The position numbers were made by a program, and so were the translations under genes. From a virus, in the IMG/VR virus record IMGVR_UViG_3300010413_000167, positions 1 through 24,115 of that record: a stretch of 24,115 bases of DNA. One strand, 5' to 3'. The notes beneath the pieces are model-generated. The model made no database searches. It was not told the DNA's origin and saw nothing but the letters and a program-made list of their open reading frames with translations. Of the stretch, positions 5,323 to 14,583 are shown one piece after another (position 1 is the first letter of the stretch; the number at the start of each line of letters is the position of its first letter).

Positions 5323-7157
5323 GTGGTCACCAACGTCGCGGAGATCGCGCCCGGAGACACCGAGAACGTCCCATTATCACTTGCCTTGAACGTGAATGAA
5401 TACCCGTCGACCCGAGCCAGAGACGGGACCACCTCGGACGAGATCACAAGACTGTTTCCGGTGGTCGTCCAGGCGACCGCAGGGATCGTGATGTACATGC
5501 CTCGGCGCAGGTTGAGAAGGGGGATTGTCGGCAGAATCTGGATCTTTCTGACCCCATTGTCTCGGACCAGATTTGCGGTTCCGATGACCTTACCAATCTC
5601 CTCGAGTTCCTCCTCCCAGTCCTTCGCGTCGTCCCGATCGGAATCGAGCCCGAGCGGCACATCGTAGATCAACGTCTCACCATAATCACCAAGATCAGAC
5701 GCATGTTCCCCAAGGTCATCCGCTGCCTCGACATCTTCCGGCGCCGCGATGTCGAGTTCGATGAACCCGTCACCGTCTTTGATCTTGACGCGCACCCCGG
5801 TCAACCCGCTGCTCGTGCCGTTGTACTCAATCTGCTTCGGCTCGGAGTACGGACTCTCCGTATCACCGACAACACAGGTCGCCACATACTCGTAGGTGGC
5901 CCCGGTCTCCAAACTTTCCCGATCGGCAAACGATGCATAACCATCGGCCCATCGCGCCGTTTCCTCGTTCAATGCCTCGGCAATCAGAGTCCATTGAATG
6001 ATCTCGTCAGGATTCGGATCCTCGTCCGCTGGCTCGGTGTCCGGCACCGACGCGGGCAAGCTCGAGGTCGGTACGCCGGCAACCGTTTCGACACCGGTCT
6101 CGTCGACCCGCATGTTGAGCCTGATTGGCGTTTCCGGATCGGTTGCATAGATTCCGTAGATGTCGTCCGGTTGTGTCCGCTCCGGGCGCGAAATCAACCG
6201 GCGATAGAGTCGATACTTTTCGGGCTGAATCGGAATTTTGTGGAACCGTGGGAAGGTGATCACCCAGACGGCACCACCACCCTTGACATCGGCTCGCACC
6301 GCATCGGAGATTCCGAACAACGATTCGATGTTTGGTGGGTCGAGCGGAACCGAGATTTCTTCACGACCGGCAACCTTGCTCTCGTACTCCGGTCCCTGAA
6401 CGTCGACCTTCCCGGGTCGAAGCAGATCCTTTTTGACGGTCCACGTAATGATGTGCGACCACGTTTCTTCAACTCGGTGGTCTTCGATCGAAATCTGCTT
6501 CCACATCGTTCGAACAGCGGAATTTTCTTTCTCGATGATTGTCGACCGTTCGAGTGCTTGATCCCAGGTCTGCACCGAGTCAAGCTGCAGATCGTTCTCC
6601 TCATCCTCTGGGGTGGGGTCCGGCCCGCCCGGTGGCTCGCCGCCGAGCTCATCGTCCTCATCGCCCATGCTTGCGAGCAGTTGTCTCCCCTGATCTTTTG
6701 CCAGCTCGATGTCTTCCTCGGTGGGAGCTTTCTTCGTGGAGCTCACCCGGTAGATCACGACACCTTCCCGCACGGTCCGATATGACAACTCGTTCGAACT
6801 CGTCGAAGCATATACAGACGATGACCAGAATACAGTTCTGACCCTATCGACGAGACCCATCGTCGTGCGCCTCGACCGACCCGGCAACCAGAGCCGAGCA
6901 TAGGTGAGCTTGATGTACTCGTCCGGGGGGGAGTAGACCGTGCGGTACTCCCACTCCTCGACCGTGTGAGTGATCTCAACCCCATACTGATTGGTCACCC
7001 ACATTTCACGCTTGACAAGCACCTCTTTACCACCCGGCAACCCGGACCACCACGACTTCGTTCGGACCCGCTCGAGTCCCTCCGAGTACTTCTCGACCGC
7101 TGGGAAATCCCCGAGGTTTTCTTCGGACTCACGGGTGATTGGCAAGGAATTGTTCAT
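5319..7157 (-). CDS. Baseplate hub, C-terminal part, with Fn3-like domain
   Basis: This 612-residue protein begins with a beta region (VKREMWVTNQYGVEITHTVE, DEYIKLTYARLWLPGRSRR) that reads like the second half of a tail-hub. An acidic Gly/Pro-rich linker follows at about residues 166-190 (DEDDELGGEPPGGPDPTPED). A probable fibronectin-type-III region spans about 305-465 (AVWVITFPRFHKIPIQPEKY ... LETGATYEYVATCVVGDTES). The C-terminal part (LNLRRGMYITIPAVAWTTTG) is typical of hub proteins. ATG at 7157 overlaps the upstream stop as ATGA. The frame continues upstream to 7265 but inside the previous gene. The stop overlaps the next start as ATGA. Confidence 0.82.
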   Translation of the reverse strand: MNNSLPITRESEENLGDFPAVEKYSEGLERVRTKSWWSGLPGGKEVLVKREMWVTNQYGVEITHTVEEWEYRTVYSPPDEYIKLTYARLWLPGRSRRTTMGLVDRVRTVFWSSSVYASTSSNELSYRTVREGVVIYRVSSTKKAPTEEDIELAKDQGRQLLASMGDEDDELGGEPPGGPDPTPEDEENDLQLDSVQTWDQALERSTIIEKENSAVRTMWKQISIEDHRVEETWSHIITWTVKKDLLRPGKVDVQGPEYESKVAGREEISVPLDPPNIESLFGISDAVRADVKGGGAVWVITFPRFHKIPIQPEKYRLYRRLISRPERTQPDDIYGIYATDPETPIRLNMRVDETGVETVAGVPTSSLPASVPDTEPADEDPNPDEIIQWTLIAEALNEETARWADGYASFADRESLETGATYEYVATCVVGDTESPYSEPKQIEYNGTSSGLTGVRVKIKDGDGFIELDIAAPEDVEAADDLGEHASDLGDYGETLIYDVPLGLDSDRDDAKDWEEELEEIGKVIGTANLVRDNGVRKIQILPTIPLLNLRRGMYITIPAVAWTTTGNSLVISSEVVPSLARVDGYSFTFKASDNGTFSVSPGAISATLVTT

Positions 7158-7909
7158 CGTGGGATTCTCACAATCACTCGATTTGCTTTGCGCTTCCGGA
7201 CCGGGACATCGGTCAGTGACTTGATCAGATGCTCTGGGAGATTCATTGTCGACCCGACACCACATTGGGCAGCAACCGGATCAGTGATCATCAGAGTGTT
7301 TGTCCCCGAGTCAAAATGGATGTACGGCGCCTGGGATTCGACGAGGTCTGAGATCTGCCGCCAGTAACTGCTATCCGGCGGCATGACAAACGGGTCGAGC
7401 GGGAGATCCTCGATGCGGAACTCGCAGCGGAAACCCGCCATGTGAGCCAGCGTGGTCACGACTCCACGCAATGTCATCCTCGGGCCCATCGTGACAGTCG
7501 TGTAAACCCCGATTGGGTCGGTGTAGCTGGCGACTGCCCGTCGCGCATTGTTCGGGTCACGAGCAAAAACCAGTGTTTGTCGTGGGCGTTTGCGTTGCAT
7601 CAGCCAGATTGCCTCGTACCCCTGGACAGTGATGGTAGGCACATCACCGTCTATGCTGATGTCCGGCTGGATGTCCGGTGGAATGACGCCGGCCCGCATG
7701 AGCAGTTCAGCCCTCGGGACCGTACCGTCGTAGCTCGCATAGATGTCCCACGGCACCCCAAGCTCGAGGTTGTGGTAGCCACGCAACGTAACTCGAAAAC
7801 TTCCGTAGAGAGTATTTTCGCCCTGCTCAATGTGGATCTCTGATGTCCAGTCGGTAATGTCCCGGCCACCCATGAGCACCAATAGTTTGACCCGGACTAC
7901 ATCAGCCAA
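7154..7909 (-). CDS. Tail hub protein, N-terminal part (gp27/gpD-like)
   Basis: This 251-residue protein has the recurring features of tail-hub/baseplate hub proteins: VLMGGRDITDWTSEIHI (residues 11-28), DISIDGDVPTITVQGYEAIW, LRGVVTTLAHMAGFRCE, and SSYWRQISDLVESQAPYIHF followed by TNTLMITDP. These match the first domains of hub proteins that cap the tube and hold the puncturing device. It ends before the domain in which a longer hub would continue, and the next gene supplies that part. The start is TTG at 7909, with GGGGGTGA about three nt upstream; no ATG fits. It overlaps the previous gene by 8 nt and the next by 4 nt (ATGA). Confidence 0.82.
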   Translation of the reverse strand: MADVVRVKLLVLMGGRDITDWTSEIHIEQGENTLYGSFRVTLRGYHNLELGVPWDIYASYDGTVPRAELLMRAGVIPPDIQPDISIDGDVPTITVQGYEAIWLMQRKRPRQTLVFARDPNNARRAVASYTDPIGVYTTVTMGPRMTLRGVVTTLAHMAGFRCEFRIEDLPLDPFVMPPDSSYWRQISDLVESQAPYIHFDSGTNTLMITDPVAAQCGVGSTMNLPEHLIKSLTDVPVRKRKANRVIVRIPR

Positions 7910-8759
7910 AGGTCACCCCCAGACCCTCGAGGACGGTCCTCGTCGTATCGTCCGGGACAATGATCTCAACCACCGTCCCCCGGACAACCCCGTAGACGAC
8001 CATCGACGCAGGCAATTTGGTAAGCACCTCCGCACCGACAATCACCGATGCCTTGTGCCCATGCCGGAAGTAGACCCCGGTGATCACCGATGCTGGTTGG
8101 CTCGTACTCGTCCAGTTCTGCGTGACCATCGAAGCCGGGACTTTCTGTCCCATGTAGGCTTGCACGATCATCGAGGCGTCGACGACGTGCTCCACAAGCT
8201 CGCCGACGATTGCCGACACCGGTTGGCTCACCCTGATCGGGTGCCCGACGTAGTAGTACAGGTCGGCTTGAGCCTTGAGGATGTCCATCGTCCAGTAGTA
8301 CGCCTCGCCGGTACACCGGTCGGTCCCGTTGTTCAGACAGATCCAGTAGGCTCGCATCGACGAGATTGGTCGTGTGAACTCGTGCGCTGTGTAGTAGATC
8401 ATCCCGGTCGCCGGGTAGTGCTGCTCGTGATCAAGCACAGTGAATGAAGTTGTCGAGAGGGTGCTTGAGTTGTACTTGACGACGACCGTGATCTCCTCGC
8501 CGCTCATGTAGTACCAATCGATCCGAGTTGCCACGGTCACATCAGTGAAATCGTCGACGTAGACACCACCTGAAACCTTCTTGATGCCGGTGGCCTCGAG
8601 CCCGCCATTCGCGATGGTGAAGGACTGTGAGCCGAGCAATACTTCGATCAGAGACAGGGTCATGTCGGTCGAGTCCGAAAGCTCGACAATCACCGGAGTG
8701 TTTGCGAACACATTCACCGCACCATCAGCCGGCGAAACGGAATCGACCACAACTGCCAT
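7902..8759 (-). CDS. Tail-tip protein with six tandem 14-residue repeats
   Basis: This 285-residue protein has two parts. Residues 1-110 form a beta sandwich that opens VDSVSPADGAVNVFANTPVI, the pattern of bacterial Ig-like (Big_5/SbsA-type) domains. Residues 179-262 hold six back-to-back 14-residue repeats with the core PAS-[MVI]-[IV]-[VT], for example VDASMIVQAYMGQK, VPASMVTQNWTSTS, QPASVITGVYFRHG. They predict a regular beta-solenoid or fibre shaft. Between them is a Tyr/Trp-rich linker (about 115-175). The start is ATG 8759, 1 nt past the previous stop. The stop lies inside the next gene's start region. The full family is not recognised. Confidence 0.85.
   Translation of the reverse strand: MAVVVDSVSPADGAVNVFANTPVIVELSDSTDMTLSLIEVLLGSQSFTIANGGLEATGIKKVSGGVYVDDFTDVTVATRIDWYYMSGEEITVVVKYNSSTLSTTSFTVLDHEQHYPATGMIYYTAHEFTRPISSMRAYWICLNNGTDRCTGEAYYWTMDILKAQADLYYYVGHPIRVSQPVSAIVGELVEHVVDASMIVQAYMGQKVPASMVTQNWTSTSQPASVITGVYFRHGHKASVIVGAEVLTKLPASMVVYGVVRGTVVEIIVPDDTTRTVLEGLGVTFG
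7974..8225 (-). repeat. Six tandem 42-bp coding repeats (14-residue units)
   Basis: These are residues 179-262 of the preceding protein. The units are strictly 14 residues long with no gap: QPVSAIVGELVEHV, VDASMIVQAYMGQK, VPASMVTQNWTSTS, QPASVITGVYFRHG, HKASVIVGAEVLTK, LPASMVVYGVVRGT. Positions 2-7 ([PDK]-A-S-[MVA]-[IV]-[VT]) are conserved and the last seven residues vary. The DNA units have diverged, so the repeat is held by protein structure, not by recent duplication. Confidence 0.88.
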
Positions 8760-8760
8760 G

Positions 8761-10917
8761 TCATGTCCTGACGTTCAGCCTGAGTTGCTTGAGTTCTTCG
8801 GTCGTGGTCTCGTCGATCACGTACCGCAGCCAAAACGGCACCTCTCCCTCGCCGACCTGGACGACAAACGAACCCTCGGCAAAGTCTGCGTCGAGATCAG
8901 CCGTGAGTTCGATGTAGGTACTCGTCACCCCCGATGTGGCGATCGACCGAGTGTTGAAGATCGTCGCGTCGAAGTTGGAGATAGTCACATCAGACCCAGC
9001 AGTGAACCCGATCGTGACCGGGTCGTCGATGTAGATCCGCGCAGGTTGCCCTTCAGACACCCCTGAGTCGGCGTTTGTTTTTGCGTGAACAGATGGTCCC
9101 ACATCCTCGGCGGGCAGCGTGGTGCCAACCCTGGACCCCACGGCATAGGCATTCGAGCCGGACGTGAGACCCTCGATCTCGATTTGAAACGGCGTTAGAG
9201 GAATCGTCCAGTAGTCGGTAGCCGTATGGTTGTCGTCCGCAGTCCAGTAGACGTAGATGCCGTCCTCGAGCAACACCCGGTTTCCGGCCCCGGTGACGAC
9301 GTTCTGTGCCGATGACCACGACGGCGGATACGAAGCAGCACGACCCCACTTGAACTGATCTGGCGACCCCTCACTGTCGATGTAGATGTAGAGGTTGTCC
9401 TCGACCGTCCCGGTGAAGTTGCCCTCGACGGTGATGTCGTCCGCTCCGGTCCCGGTCAGTGTTGCGGTGCCGATCGACGCCTCGTCCACCGACTTGATCG
9501 TGCCCTCGTCGAGGGTCGTCCCGTTGCCAATCCAACACGGGATTCCGATCGTCCACCGGGTTGCCACGATCGGTTTGACGACGATCGTTTTTGTCGTGCC
9601 GTCGATGGTGACTGCCGCCATGGTCCGGGTCCGCTGCCCGCAGATCGGGCGCCACCCTGCCGAGTCCGGAGAGTTCGAATCGTCGTATGTGATTTCGACC
9701 TGATCGTTCGAATCTGCGGCCCACAACGAGGAGTCTGTTGTGTTGCCCAACACCAACACCTCGAAGTCATCAGCCGCAGTGAGTCCATCCGGTTGCCAGC
9801 ACTCTTTTGGGATCGTGAGCCCACCCTCGGGTGCAACGAAGTCCGTACCCGTGGTGCCGCGCCAGTTGCTATCAGCATCGATCGTTGGGTGCAGGTTTGT
9901 TGTGTTGTCGCGAAACTTCAACGCCTGGATTTCATACTCCGTTGCGGAGTAGAAATTGACGATGTAGCGTTGGGAAACGGCACCCTCCTGGAGAACGACG
10001 TAATCGAGATTCCCAGTGCCGGACCCGTTGAGATGTACCGGGTCGGTCCACTCCGGGAAGTCATCCCAGATTTCCATCAAGTCGAAAGTGTTGGTTAGGG
10101 AATGGTTCTTGGCAAACGCCTTGACCGGGGTGCCAGTCTCGCCGCGCTGCCCTGCCCCGAGGTAGAGAGAATCCGAAAGCTCGTCCGACTCGATCGCGAT
10201 TGCCTCGAGGTTGATGTCCCCATTGGTCCGCGCCGCATAGAACTCGACGAGGTTCAAGTAGCGGATCGTGAAAAACGGTTTTCTCGATGCTGCCGAAAAC
10301 CCGACAAAGTAGTGACTGCAGTTCGACGATGATTTCGGCTTGATCCGCATCAACACTTGCCAGTCAACACCGGCTCTGAGCACGTACTCCATCTCATCGG
10401 TTACGTCGATGACCATCGCAGGGGTGTCCCGATCCTGCCCGTCGTAAACGACGGTGACCGTGTCCTCCCAGATCGGCGCGGCCTTTATGTCCTTGCCCTC
10501 AACCGGTCCCCAGATGTCATGGGTCCACGTTGTCGTGCTTGCAATGCGGTATTGCACGGTCGCCGACCCCGACTCGTCGTGCCATGCCGGCGGGAGAAGA
10601 AACCGCATCAGCTGCACGGTCCCAGAGTTTGTACCACCGAGGGAACTCTGTTTAAAAAACGTCCAGGTTGCCGAGAGGATGATCGGCGACTGCCCGATGA
10701 TTGCCCGGAGGTTTGCGAGCCGCAGACGCAGACACCACCAACGGAATGCACCGTCGACAATGTGATACGGCTCGATCTCGTCGTACTCGTTGTAGCTCCC
10801 GAGGTCGGAGTTGTTGCCCGAGTTGTTGAGGATGACAGAGTTCCCGTAAAGACATCTGATGCTGTAGCCGGGAGTCTGATCGGGATATTTCCCATACTCC
10901 AAATATCGATGACTCAT
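8761..10917 (-). CDS. Large multi-domain beta-structured baseplate/adsorption protein
   Basis: This 718-residue protein is one of the two largest complete tail-tip genes. Residues about 55-225 include a DNRLRE-like or lectin-like sandwich (QLMRFLLPPAWHDESGSA ... FVGFSAASRKPFFTIRYL). Residues about 505-575 carry a repeat-type beta motif I know from phage and adhesin proteins: YIYIDSEGSPDQFKWGR, then AGNRVLLEDGIYVYW, then DNHTATDYWTI. The C terminus FWLRYVIDETTTEELKQLRL plus NVR resembles the previous protein's. It probably forms part of the host-binding tip. No enzyme motif is seen. The start overlaps the previous stop as ATGA. Confidence 0.82.
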   Translation of the reverse strand: MSHRYLEYGKYPDQTPGYSIRCLYGNSVILNNSGNNSDLGSYNEYDEIEPYHIVDGAFRWWCLRLRLANLRAIIGQSPIILSATWTFFKQSSLGGTNSGTVQLMRFLLPPAWHDESGSATVQYRIASTTTWTHDIWGPVEGKDIKAAPIWEDTVTVVYDGQDRDTPAMVIDVTDEMEYVLRAGVDWQVLMRIKPKSSSNCSHYFVGFSAASRKPFFTIRYLNLVEFYAARTNGDINLEAIAIESDELSDSLYLGAGQRGETGTPVKAFAKNHSLTNTFDLMEIWDDFPEWTDPVHLNGSGTGNLDYVVLQEGAVSQRYIVNFYSATEYEIQALKFRDNTTNLHPTIDADSNWRGTTGTDFVAPEGGLTIPKECWQPDGLTAADDFEVLVLGNTTDSSLWAADSNDQVEITYDDSNSPDSAGWRPICGQRTRTMAAVTIDGTTKTIVVKPIVATRWTIGIPCWIGNGTTLDEGTIKSVDEASIGTATLTGTGADDITVEGNFTGTVEDNLYIYIDSEGSPDQFKWGRAASYPPSWSSAQNVVTGAGNRVLLEDGIYVYWTADDNHTATDYWTIPLTPFQIEIEGLTSGSNAYAVGSRVGTTLPAEDVGPSVHAKTNADSGVSEGQPARIYIDDPVTIGFTAGSDVTISNFDATIFNTRSIATSGVTSTYIELTADLDADFAEGSFVVQVGEGEVPFWLRYVIDETTTEELKQLRLNVRT

Positions 10918-11965: not shown

Positions 11966-12382
11966 CTACATCTTGTACATCGTGACCTGGGCGCGTTGCC
12001 AAGTCAGTCGAGAGTTGATTGCCGACCCATCCCGAGCTGAGTCCGGATGGTCGCCGATGACAGCGTCGAATGTGGTTTCTTCTCGGGGTCCGAACACCGC
12101 ATAAAACGGTGTTCCGCCAGACTTCAGTCGAGTTGTAATGATCCCGCCGGCATCGAGCAACACGGCAAGTGTTTCGGCTTGTGCCGCATCGAGCAAGGTG
12201 AATTTCAGAACGAGCTTCGCATTGGTTGGTGTTGCGTCGTACTCCGTTACGATCCGCTGCCCGGACACGCTCGAGGCGACGGCAGTCTGCCGCCCGCGAT
12301 CCTGAAATCTCTCAACAAGGATCGGTGGTCGGTCGACGGTCAAGCTCGTCGTGCCGTTGCTCAACACAACGAATGAACTCAT
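11966..12382 (-). CDS. Tail-tip protein of unknown family, after the tape measure
   Basis: This 138-residue protein has an opening of alternating strands (SSFVVLSNGTTSLTVDRPP), a middle region AKLVLKFTLLDAAQAETLAV, and a C-terminal TFDAVIGDHPDSARDGSAIN segment. The plain beta-type pattern, the small size and the place directly after the tape measure fit a distal tail or baseplate ring component, but I recognise no family. ATG at 12382 overlaps the tape-measure stop as ATGA. The strict coupling implies it is needed with the tape measure. Confidence 0.78.
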   Translation of the reverse strand: MSSFVVLSNGTTSLTVDRPPILVERFQDRGRQTAVASSVSGQRIVTEYDATPTNAKLVLKFTLLDAAQAETLAVLLDAGGIITTRLKSGGTPFYAVFGPREETTFDAVIGDHPDSARDGSAINSRLTWQRAQVTMYKM

Positions 12383-14583
12383 GGCAAAACCCCCGCAGCA
12401 TCGGTCGGATCCAGGATCTTGCCGTCCGGGCCGACAAGCCGGAACCCGAGCACAATCGGATTCTCATCAGCGTGCTTCTGCAGACCCTTGATCTCTTCTT
12501 TTACCGTTTCGGTGACGGTGCCGAAAGCACTCTTTGCGTTCTTAGCACTCTTGTCAGACCACTCCATGAAGATCATCGGGTTTTCCGCAGGGAGTTTGGT
12601 GCAATCCAGCACTGCCTCGGCTGTGACGTAGACAATCTTCTTCGCCTGCTTCGCCACCTCGGGGAGTTGGGTTTTGATGCTCTCCCCGAACCCCTGCATG
12701 ATCCGGTCTGCTTCTTGTTTTGCGTCTCTTGCGTACTTCCCAAACTCGTCCTGTTGACCTTGTAGGTACTCGACATAGTCACCGAAATACTTCTTCATCG
12801 GGCCAATCATGAGCGGGTTGTTATAGATGCCCACCATGACATCGACGATCGTTTGGCTGATCGCTTCCCATGCCTTCATGACCAGCTCGGCACCCTTCCA
12901 GGCGTAATATCCGACGATCTGTGCGAGATTTTTTTGCGATGTCGCGATGTCGTCGTTGATACCTATCGCCATCCGTTTTGCCGCTTCCCATGCTCCCTTG
13001 AAATCACCGTTCAGTGCCTTCACGATGATTTCGATCGAGCCGGTCAACGCGGTCACCATTGCCGCCGCAACGTCTGTGATGAGCACCAATGTGACAGTCA
13101 ACACTGCCTTGATTTCCTTGCCGTATTGCCCGAAAAAGGTCTTCAGCTTTTCAAAGATCTCTTTGATGTCCGGCCAGATACGGATTGCCGTGTCCTTGAT
13201 CTTCTGGATCTGTGCCGCAAAGTGCTCGTACATGAAAACGAACACCGGTTTCGCATACTCCCAGAAATCGACCACAGCCTTTTTGATCTGTTGCCAGTAG
13301 ACCCCAACACCAACAACGATTGCGGCAATCCCGGCGGCAGCGGCGATCGACGCCGGCCCGATCGACCCGATGATCGTGATGAGCGTCCCGAGGGCAAAGA
13401 TGACCGGACCGGCGGCGACGGCAATCAGACCAATCGTCAGCACCGTCTTTTTGATCTTTGGGTCAAGCTCTTCGAATGCCGTCGTCGCCTTGGAAATGAC
13501 CTCTGACACCTTTTGCACAGCTTTGAGGACGTATGGCATGACAACGTACCCGAGCTTGACGCCAGCCGCTTGAATTGCCGCCAGTGCCATCTGGAACATG
13601 AGCATCGGTCGGCTTGCGGTCTCCTCGAACGCTTCCGCCAGGTCTCCGGTGTTGTCCTTCATGCGCTCGAAGATCTCCATGGCATCCTTCGCGTTTTCGC
13701 CGGTCAGTGCGAGCACGCCAGTCAGAGCCCGGATCCGGCTGAACATCTGCCCGGTGGGCTCGATGCCTTGGAGTTTCTCCCGCAACCCGAGCAAGGCCGG
13801 GAGCAACCCTTTCTCGTCGACCTCCTGCCGCAGTTGCCCGAGGTTGAGCCCAACATCAGACAGGGCCTTTGCCGACTTCGAGGTCGGTTTGATCAATGCG
13901 GTCATGATGGTTCTGATTGACGTTGACGCTTCCGCCGCTGGGAGACCGACACGAGTCAATCCTGCCATCGAGGCGCCCAACTCTTCGAACGAGATCCCGA
14001 GCTCGGCGCCGATCGGCACGAGTCGGCCCATGACGGGAGCGAGGTCTTCCGCATAGGCTTTACCCTCTCGGACGGTCGCGATAAGGGTGCTCGCCGCCCG
14101 CTCGGCACTCATGTTTGACTGCTTGTAGGCATTCATCGCCGAGGTGATCAGGTCCGCTGCGGTCGCGGTATCCCCGAGACCGACCGCAGATGCCATCGCA
14201 GACTTTTCGAGGATATCCATTGCCTCCGCCGTTTTGAACCCGGCAGAGGTCACAAAAAACAGACCGTTGGCGAGGTCTTGCGGTGCCTTGCCGACCTTCG
14301 GGGCAAGCTCGAGCAGATCTTTTCCCCACTGATCGACCTGTTCTCGGGAAACACCAACGAGAGAGACGATCTTGGTCATCGACTCGTCGAAGGTCGTTGC
14401 CATCTTCGTACTTTGGATTGCCGCCATCCCCATCGGAACGGTAAGACCATAGGTGAGTCCCTTGCCCATCCCCTGAAGTTCCCGCCCGACTGCCCGCATC
14501 TTCCGTTGAACACGCTTCATGTCCCGAAAGAATTGTTCAGTGTGCATCCCGAGAAGAATGTCGAGTTTTGCCAAAGTTGCCAT
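12379..14583 (-). CDS. Tail tape measure protein, TP901 type
   Basis: This 734-residue protein sets tail length and is likely ejected with the DNA. The N-terminal coiled coil (MHTEQFFRDMKRVQRKMRAV) leads into the TP901 core: ATTFDESMTKIVSLVGVS, then DLANGLFFVTSAGF, then LGISFEELGASMAGLTRVGL (residues 62-214). A large hydrophobic segment, about 380-430 (LTIGLIAVAAGPVIFALGTL and AGIAAIVVGVGVYW), may cross the host membrane during ejection. No peptidase or lytic domain is seen after it. At about 0.15 nm per residue the tail would be roughly 110 nm if the protein is uncut. The start overlaps the T-domain stop as TGATG, with an AAGG-type site about 8 nt away. Confidence 0.95.
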   Translation of the reverse strand: MATLAKLDILLGMHTEQFFRDMKRVQRKMRAVGRELQGMGKGLTYGLTVPMGMAAIQSTKMATTFDESMTKIVSLVGVSREQVDQWGKDLLELAPKVGKAPQDLANGLFFVTSAGFKTAEAMDILEKSAMASAVGLGDTATAADLITSAMNAYKQSNMSAERAASTLIATVREGKAYAEDLAPVMGRLVPIGAELGISFEELGASMAGLTRVGLPAAEASTSIRTIMTALIKPTSKSAKALSDVGLNLGQLRQEVDEKGLLPALLGLREKLQGIEPTGQMFSRIRALTGVLALTGENAKDAMEIFERMKDNTGDLAEAFEETASRPMLMFQMALAAIQAAGVKLGYVVMPYVLKAVQKVSEVISKATTAFEELDPKIKKTVLTIGLIAVAAGPVIFALGTLITIIGSIGPASIAAAAGIAAIVVGVGVYWQQIKKAVVDFWEYAKPVFVFMYEHFAAQIQKIKDTAIRIWPDIKEIFEKLKTFFGQYGKEIKAVLTVTLVLITDVAAAMVTALTGSIEIIVKALNGDFKGAWEAAKRMAIGINDDIATSQKNLAQIVGYYAWKGAELVMKAWEAISQTIVDVMVGIYNNPLMIGPMKKYFGDYVEYLQGQQDEFGKYARDAKQEADRIMQGFGESIKTQLPEVAKQAKKIVYVTAEAVLDCTKLPAENPMIFMEWSDKSAKNAKSAFGTVTETVKEEIKGLQKHADENPIVLGFRLVGPDGKILDPTDAAGVLP

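Follow-up and report, generated by a model that had tools for sequence, protein, structure and literature searches.

Six gapless 14-residue units form a repeat array in P0001, a protein encoded in the tail module of the virus analysed here (the window, which is the whole IMG/VR record of 24115 bases). The array is a real repeat. Judged from its sequence it is also an orphan, a term that applies at the reach used, as single-protein peptide-pattern scans find close relatives only and near records may be missing from the searched sets. The finding is real but modest: it concerns six units in one protein, with no relatives for comparison. Our preferred reading, to which we give a probability of about 0.55, is that P0001 would belong to the minor structural proteins of a tail of siphophage type, probably at its tip. 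It would combine an Ig-like N-terminal third with a C-terminal beta-repeat acting as a rigid element, structural or adhesive in role.

The array and its carrier protein

The array covers residues 179-262 of P0001, and its units read, in order, QPVSAIVGELVEHV, VDASMIVQAYMGQK, VPASMVTQNWTSTS, QPASVITGVYFRHG, HKASVIVGAEVLTK and LPASMVVYGVVRGT. Ser at position 4 is invariant (6/6), preceded by Pro at position 2 in four units and by Ala at position 3 in five. Position 5 is Met, Val or Ala, position 6 is Ile or Val in all six units, position 7 is Val or Thr, and position 8 is Gly (three units), Gln (two) or Tyr (one). Positions 9-14 vary. An earlier note, made from the letters of this DNA, had described six tandem units of exact length with one variable half, and both descriptions are borne out. 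The PAS-[MVI]-[IV] core that it gave is kept throughout at Ser4 and at the Ile/Val of position 6 but is somewhat loose at Pro (4/6), Ala (5/6) and position 5, where Ala also occurs.

In ungapped self-alignment, P0001 peaks at a score of 75 at offset 14, over about 70 residues. When P0001 was shuffled 2000 times, with all offsets from 5 to 139 allowed, the self-scores had a mean of 29.7 (sd 4.4) and a maximum of 60, and none of the 2000 reached 75; eight further proteins from the window reached self-scores of at most 40. At the DNA level, pairs of units share just 12-23 of 42 bases and Tandem Repeats Finder did not detect the array, which argues for an old array and not for recent slippage. The same Ala column is encoded by GCC, GCT, GCA and GCG in different units.

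The frame of P0001 has a single stop, which is its last codon, while the other five frames have 4-14 stops each, and its GC content by codon position (0.55/0.42/0.76) is similar to that of neighbouring genes; it is thus read as coding. Its ATG directly follows the stop of P0002, and there is an 8-base overlap with the start of the next ORF. The Ig-like head that had been proposed for this protein agrees with a weak match to the bacterial Ig-like domain Big_5 (PF13205), whose first strands are resembled by residues 2-39. This match stayed under the curated cut-off of 23.6 bits in all searches (13.1 bits and E 0.0026 for the window; 13.1-14.3 bits and Pfam E 0.07-0.26 across searches), and the likeness concerns the N-terminus, not the array. 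An Ig-like domain probably makes up the N-terminal third. In the middle part two Cys stand close together (CLNNGTDRC) and may form a disulfide loop, and the first 14 residues of the C-terminal tail could be a decayed seventh unit.

Table 1. Positions in the window of P0001, its parts and selected tail genes.
Feature	Position	Strand	Basis
P0001, 285-aa ORF carrying the array	7902..8759	-	ATG start, coding-like GC by codon position
N-terminal part of P0001, residues 1-110, probably Ig-like	8430..8759	-	weak Big_5 match
Middle part of P0001, residues 111-178, no family match	8226..8429	-	translation
Array, six 14-residue units	7974..8225	-	self-alignment, hydrophobic moment, 1-3/4-6 pairing
C-terminal tail of P0001, residues 263-285 and stop	7902..7973	-	translation
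P0002, upstream neighbour, 718 aa, no clear family	8761..10917	-	
P0003, downstream neighbour, 251 aa, hub-like	7154..7909	-	translation reading alone
Tape measure protein, marks the region as tail module	12379..14583	-	PhageMin_Tail E 2.3e-28; phrog_991 E 1.4e-71

Tail block and searches for relatives

On the minus strand, the genes run from an HNH-like gene through the terminase genes, portal, protease, capsid, connectors and major tail protein (phrog_158) to the tape measure, and then through P0008, P0005, P0002, P0001, P0003, P0004, P0007 and an Amidase_3 gene to two Gp80-type fibre genes. HNH, portal, protease and capsid were named by reading their translations, and the last three were additionally matched by tblastn in fetched loci. 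P0001 is the fourth gene past the tape measure and lies between it and the amidase, among a run of large genes. It had been labelled a tail-tip protein. Its place in the tail module is confirmed, while the tip is drawn solely from gene order past the tape measure, because P0002-P0005, P0007 and P0008 have no confident family. The tail hub that the earlier note placed beside P0001 found no backing: P0003 and P0004 gave no match in family searches, P0003 in none of the libraries searched. A hub neighbour and host contact may be supposed for P0001, and host contact need not sit there, since the window has separate fibre-type genes. These two minus-strand genes (2-1432 and 1473-1868) match Gp80 (podophage GP4 fibre I family, PF23140) with E values of 2e-25 and 7e-30, in a phage that has a tape measure protein.

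Searches of phages, plasmids, IMG/VR, bacterial genomes (GTDB), PDB, Pfam, NCBIfam and PHROGs gave no relative of P0001 or of the array, and for P0001 they also took in 50 whole records of terminase relatives and 797 genomes of two phyla; these negatives weigh little because they include no control genome known to match. Most tail-block neighbours likewise gave no relatives, and P0002 gave only marginal local matches. Relatives were found for the tape measure and for the head genes, which leaves the tail block as the divergent part. The terminase relatives found in phage records (36-40 % identity) and in IMG/VR (up to 46 %) lack this tail block and indicate no single host.

The earlier note had not recognised the repeat, and no described repeat family matched it here. 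A profile-type search with the 14-residue consensus, which the note had proposed as a check, was run as an idealised consensus array and gave no useful match; its PHROG matches cover 6-19 residues, with no stretch passing alone, and were taken as chance. When IMG/VR and genomes were scanned with periodic DNA patterns spanning three or two units, the matches listed were all either frames of low complexity or of 7 residues, genes of coiled-coil type or chance matches. The 7-residue frames include long ones of the PACVVAI / PAWVVAM type (L024, L038, L040, L058 and others). The opposite strand of L040 reads TTQAGIATTQAGIA, so that these frames are probably antisense of repetitive genes.

Fold of the array and competing readings

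The hydrophobic moment of the array is 0.81 at 180 degrees and 0.17 at 100 degrees, an alternation with the period of a beta-strand, and the array is thus probably of beta-strand type. A coiled coil with two heptads per 14 residues was rejected on the same two moments and on the presence of Pro in four of six units. The exact period and the alternation agree with the regular beta array that had been predicted from the letters; the solenoid or trimeric form predicted along with it is not covered by them. AlphaFold2, run on the monomer with no alignment, gave low confidence in both cases (pLDDT 33.9 for whole P0001 and 35.7 for the array).

In the preferred reading, each unit would supply roughly one strand, at positions 3-11, and a turn at positions 12-2 in which Pro is frequent. 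The packed core would consist of Ser4 and Ile/Val6, with hydrophobic residues at 3, 5, 7 and 11, and the variable positions 9-14 would be mainly surface-exposed. Close to the hub, the array would then be a rigid module with a structural or adhesive role, and a small module of this kind at the tail tip is its most likely identity. The exact period over six units, the alternating hydrophobicity, the weak Big_5 match and the place between tape measure and amidase support this reading, as do old, diverged units that keep a protein core while their Ala codons differ. Against it count the neighbours without confident family and the searches, which found no homologue of established location or structure. 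The repeat, its register, its beta-type pattern and the gene order are shown, and we infer tip location, fold, oligomeric state and function for P0001.

It is possible, at odds well short of even, that the array is instead one compact domain, a six-stranded barrel or sandwich made by old gene duplication from two three-stranded halves of 42 residues; a tail-tip location is compatible with this too. The self-alignment score at offset 42 (70, over 42 residues) is near that at offset 14, and the array, at only 84 residues, is about as long as a single small beta domain. Pairing units 1-4, 2-5 and 3-6 is the best among the 15 possible pairings, with QP-S-I-G, AS-IV-A and K-PASMV kept between partners, hinting at a duplicated half (units 1-3 to units 4-6). 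However, this preference reaches only p of about 0.067, and the core is common to all units, which a plain repeat explains equally. A single domain of two halves fits the array about as well as a solenoid or trimeric shaft does. That the array represents a new beta-repeat family, which stacks strict 14-residue layers into a trimeric shaft on the tail tip of a siphophage and has no sequence relationship to YadA heads or other known viral shafts, seems improbable to us.

Three known repeats were tested against the array (YadA head, adenovirus shaft and phage RVSQ repeats), and none fits. The YadA head is a left-handed parallel beta-roll (PF05658) with 14 residues per layer, and the array would be hardly likely to form a trimeric roll of this kind, as a short shaft whose variable surface contacts the host. 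If units are presumed to be layers, layer length is the same in all six. Ser4, Val5, Gly8 and Ala9 of unit 5 (HKASVIVGAEVLTK) are in register with the published motif GxNSVAIGAxSxAx, but Gly8 occurs in three of six units whereas Gly at this position is described as completely conserved in BpaC (PMC9543794). Moreover, the motif fit is no better than with permuted columns (p 0.47), and the YadA_head profile, searched up to E 10, matches nothing in the window. The adenovirus fibre shaft, a triple beta-spiral belonging to a viral attachment protein, likewise consists of short beta-repeats; its repeat is about 15 residues long with a different signature, and with the Adeno_shaft profile (PF00608) too the window gave nothing up to E 10.

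The motif RVSQxxVEVL was found in phage records and IMG/VR; arranged as an idealised array, it matches PHROG 13560 and PHROG 7226, both listed as function unknown. It is very unlikely that the P0001 array is a divergent member of these strand arrays: both have tandem units of about one strand with Ser near the start, in phage proteins whose genes have tail and lysis genes nearby (for RVSQ in CcrSwift, Redjac and Enc34), and P0001 carries one RVSQ (residues 176-179), but this lies four residues off the array register, RVSQ spacing in the collected IMG/VR set is 16-19 residues (17 or 18 in most cases, 14 in none), the R-V-S-Q and E signature is missing from the array, and the RVSQ-profile scores of the array are negative in register and no better than with permuted columns (p 0.13).

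RVSQ arrays themselves occur in many differently built phage proteins (L306, L309, L311, L314, L323, L329 and others, besides CcrSwift, Redjac, Enc34 and Leszy, L301-L304). One ORF (L331:1291-2772) has two RVSQ-type units followed by a region that is hub-like by translation reading alone. In L319, L320 and L326 a second strand repeat, PFIxSxTxVY, comes after the RVSQ array, with a spacing of 18-21 residues; PFIxSxTxV repeats are unrelated to the P0001 array (p 0.91).

Meaning of the array

Under either fold, most of the tail block (P0001-P0005, P0007 and P0008) consists of proteins without recognisable relatives. If the array is a duplicated six-stranded domain, it would be an ordinary small domain with its history still visible. 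If it is a regular shaft, the few designs of viral shafts would gain a sequence-new beta-repeat.
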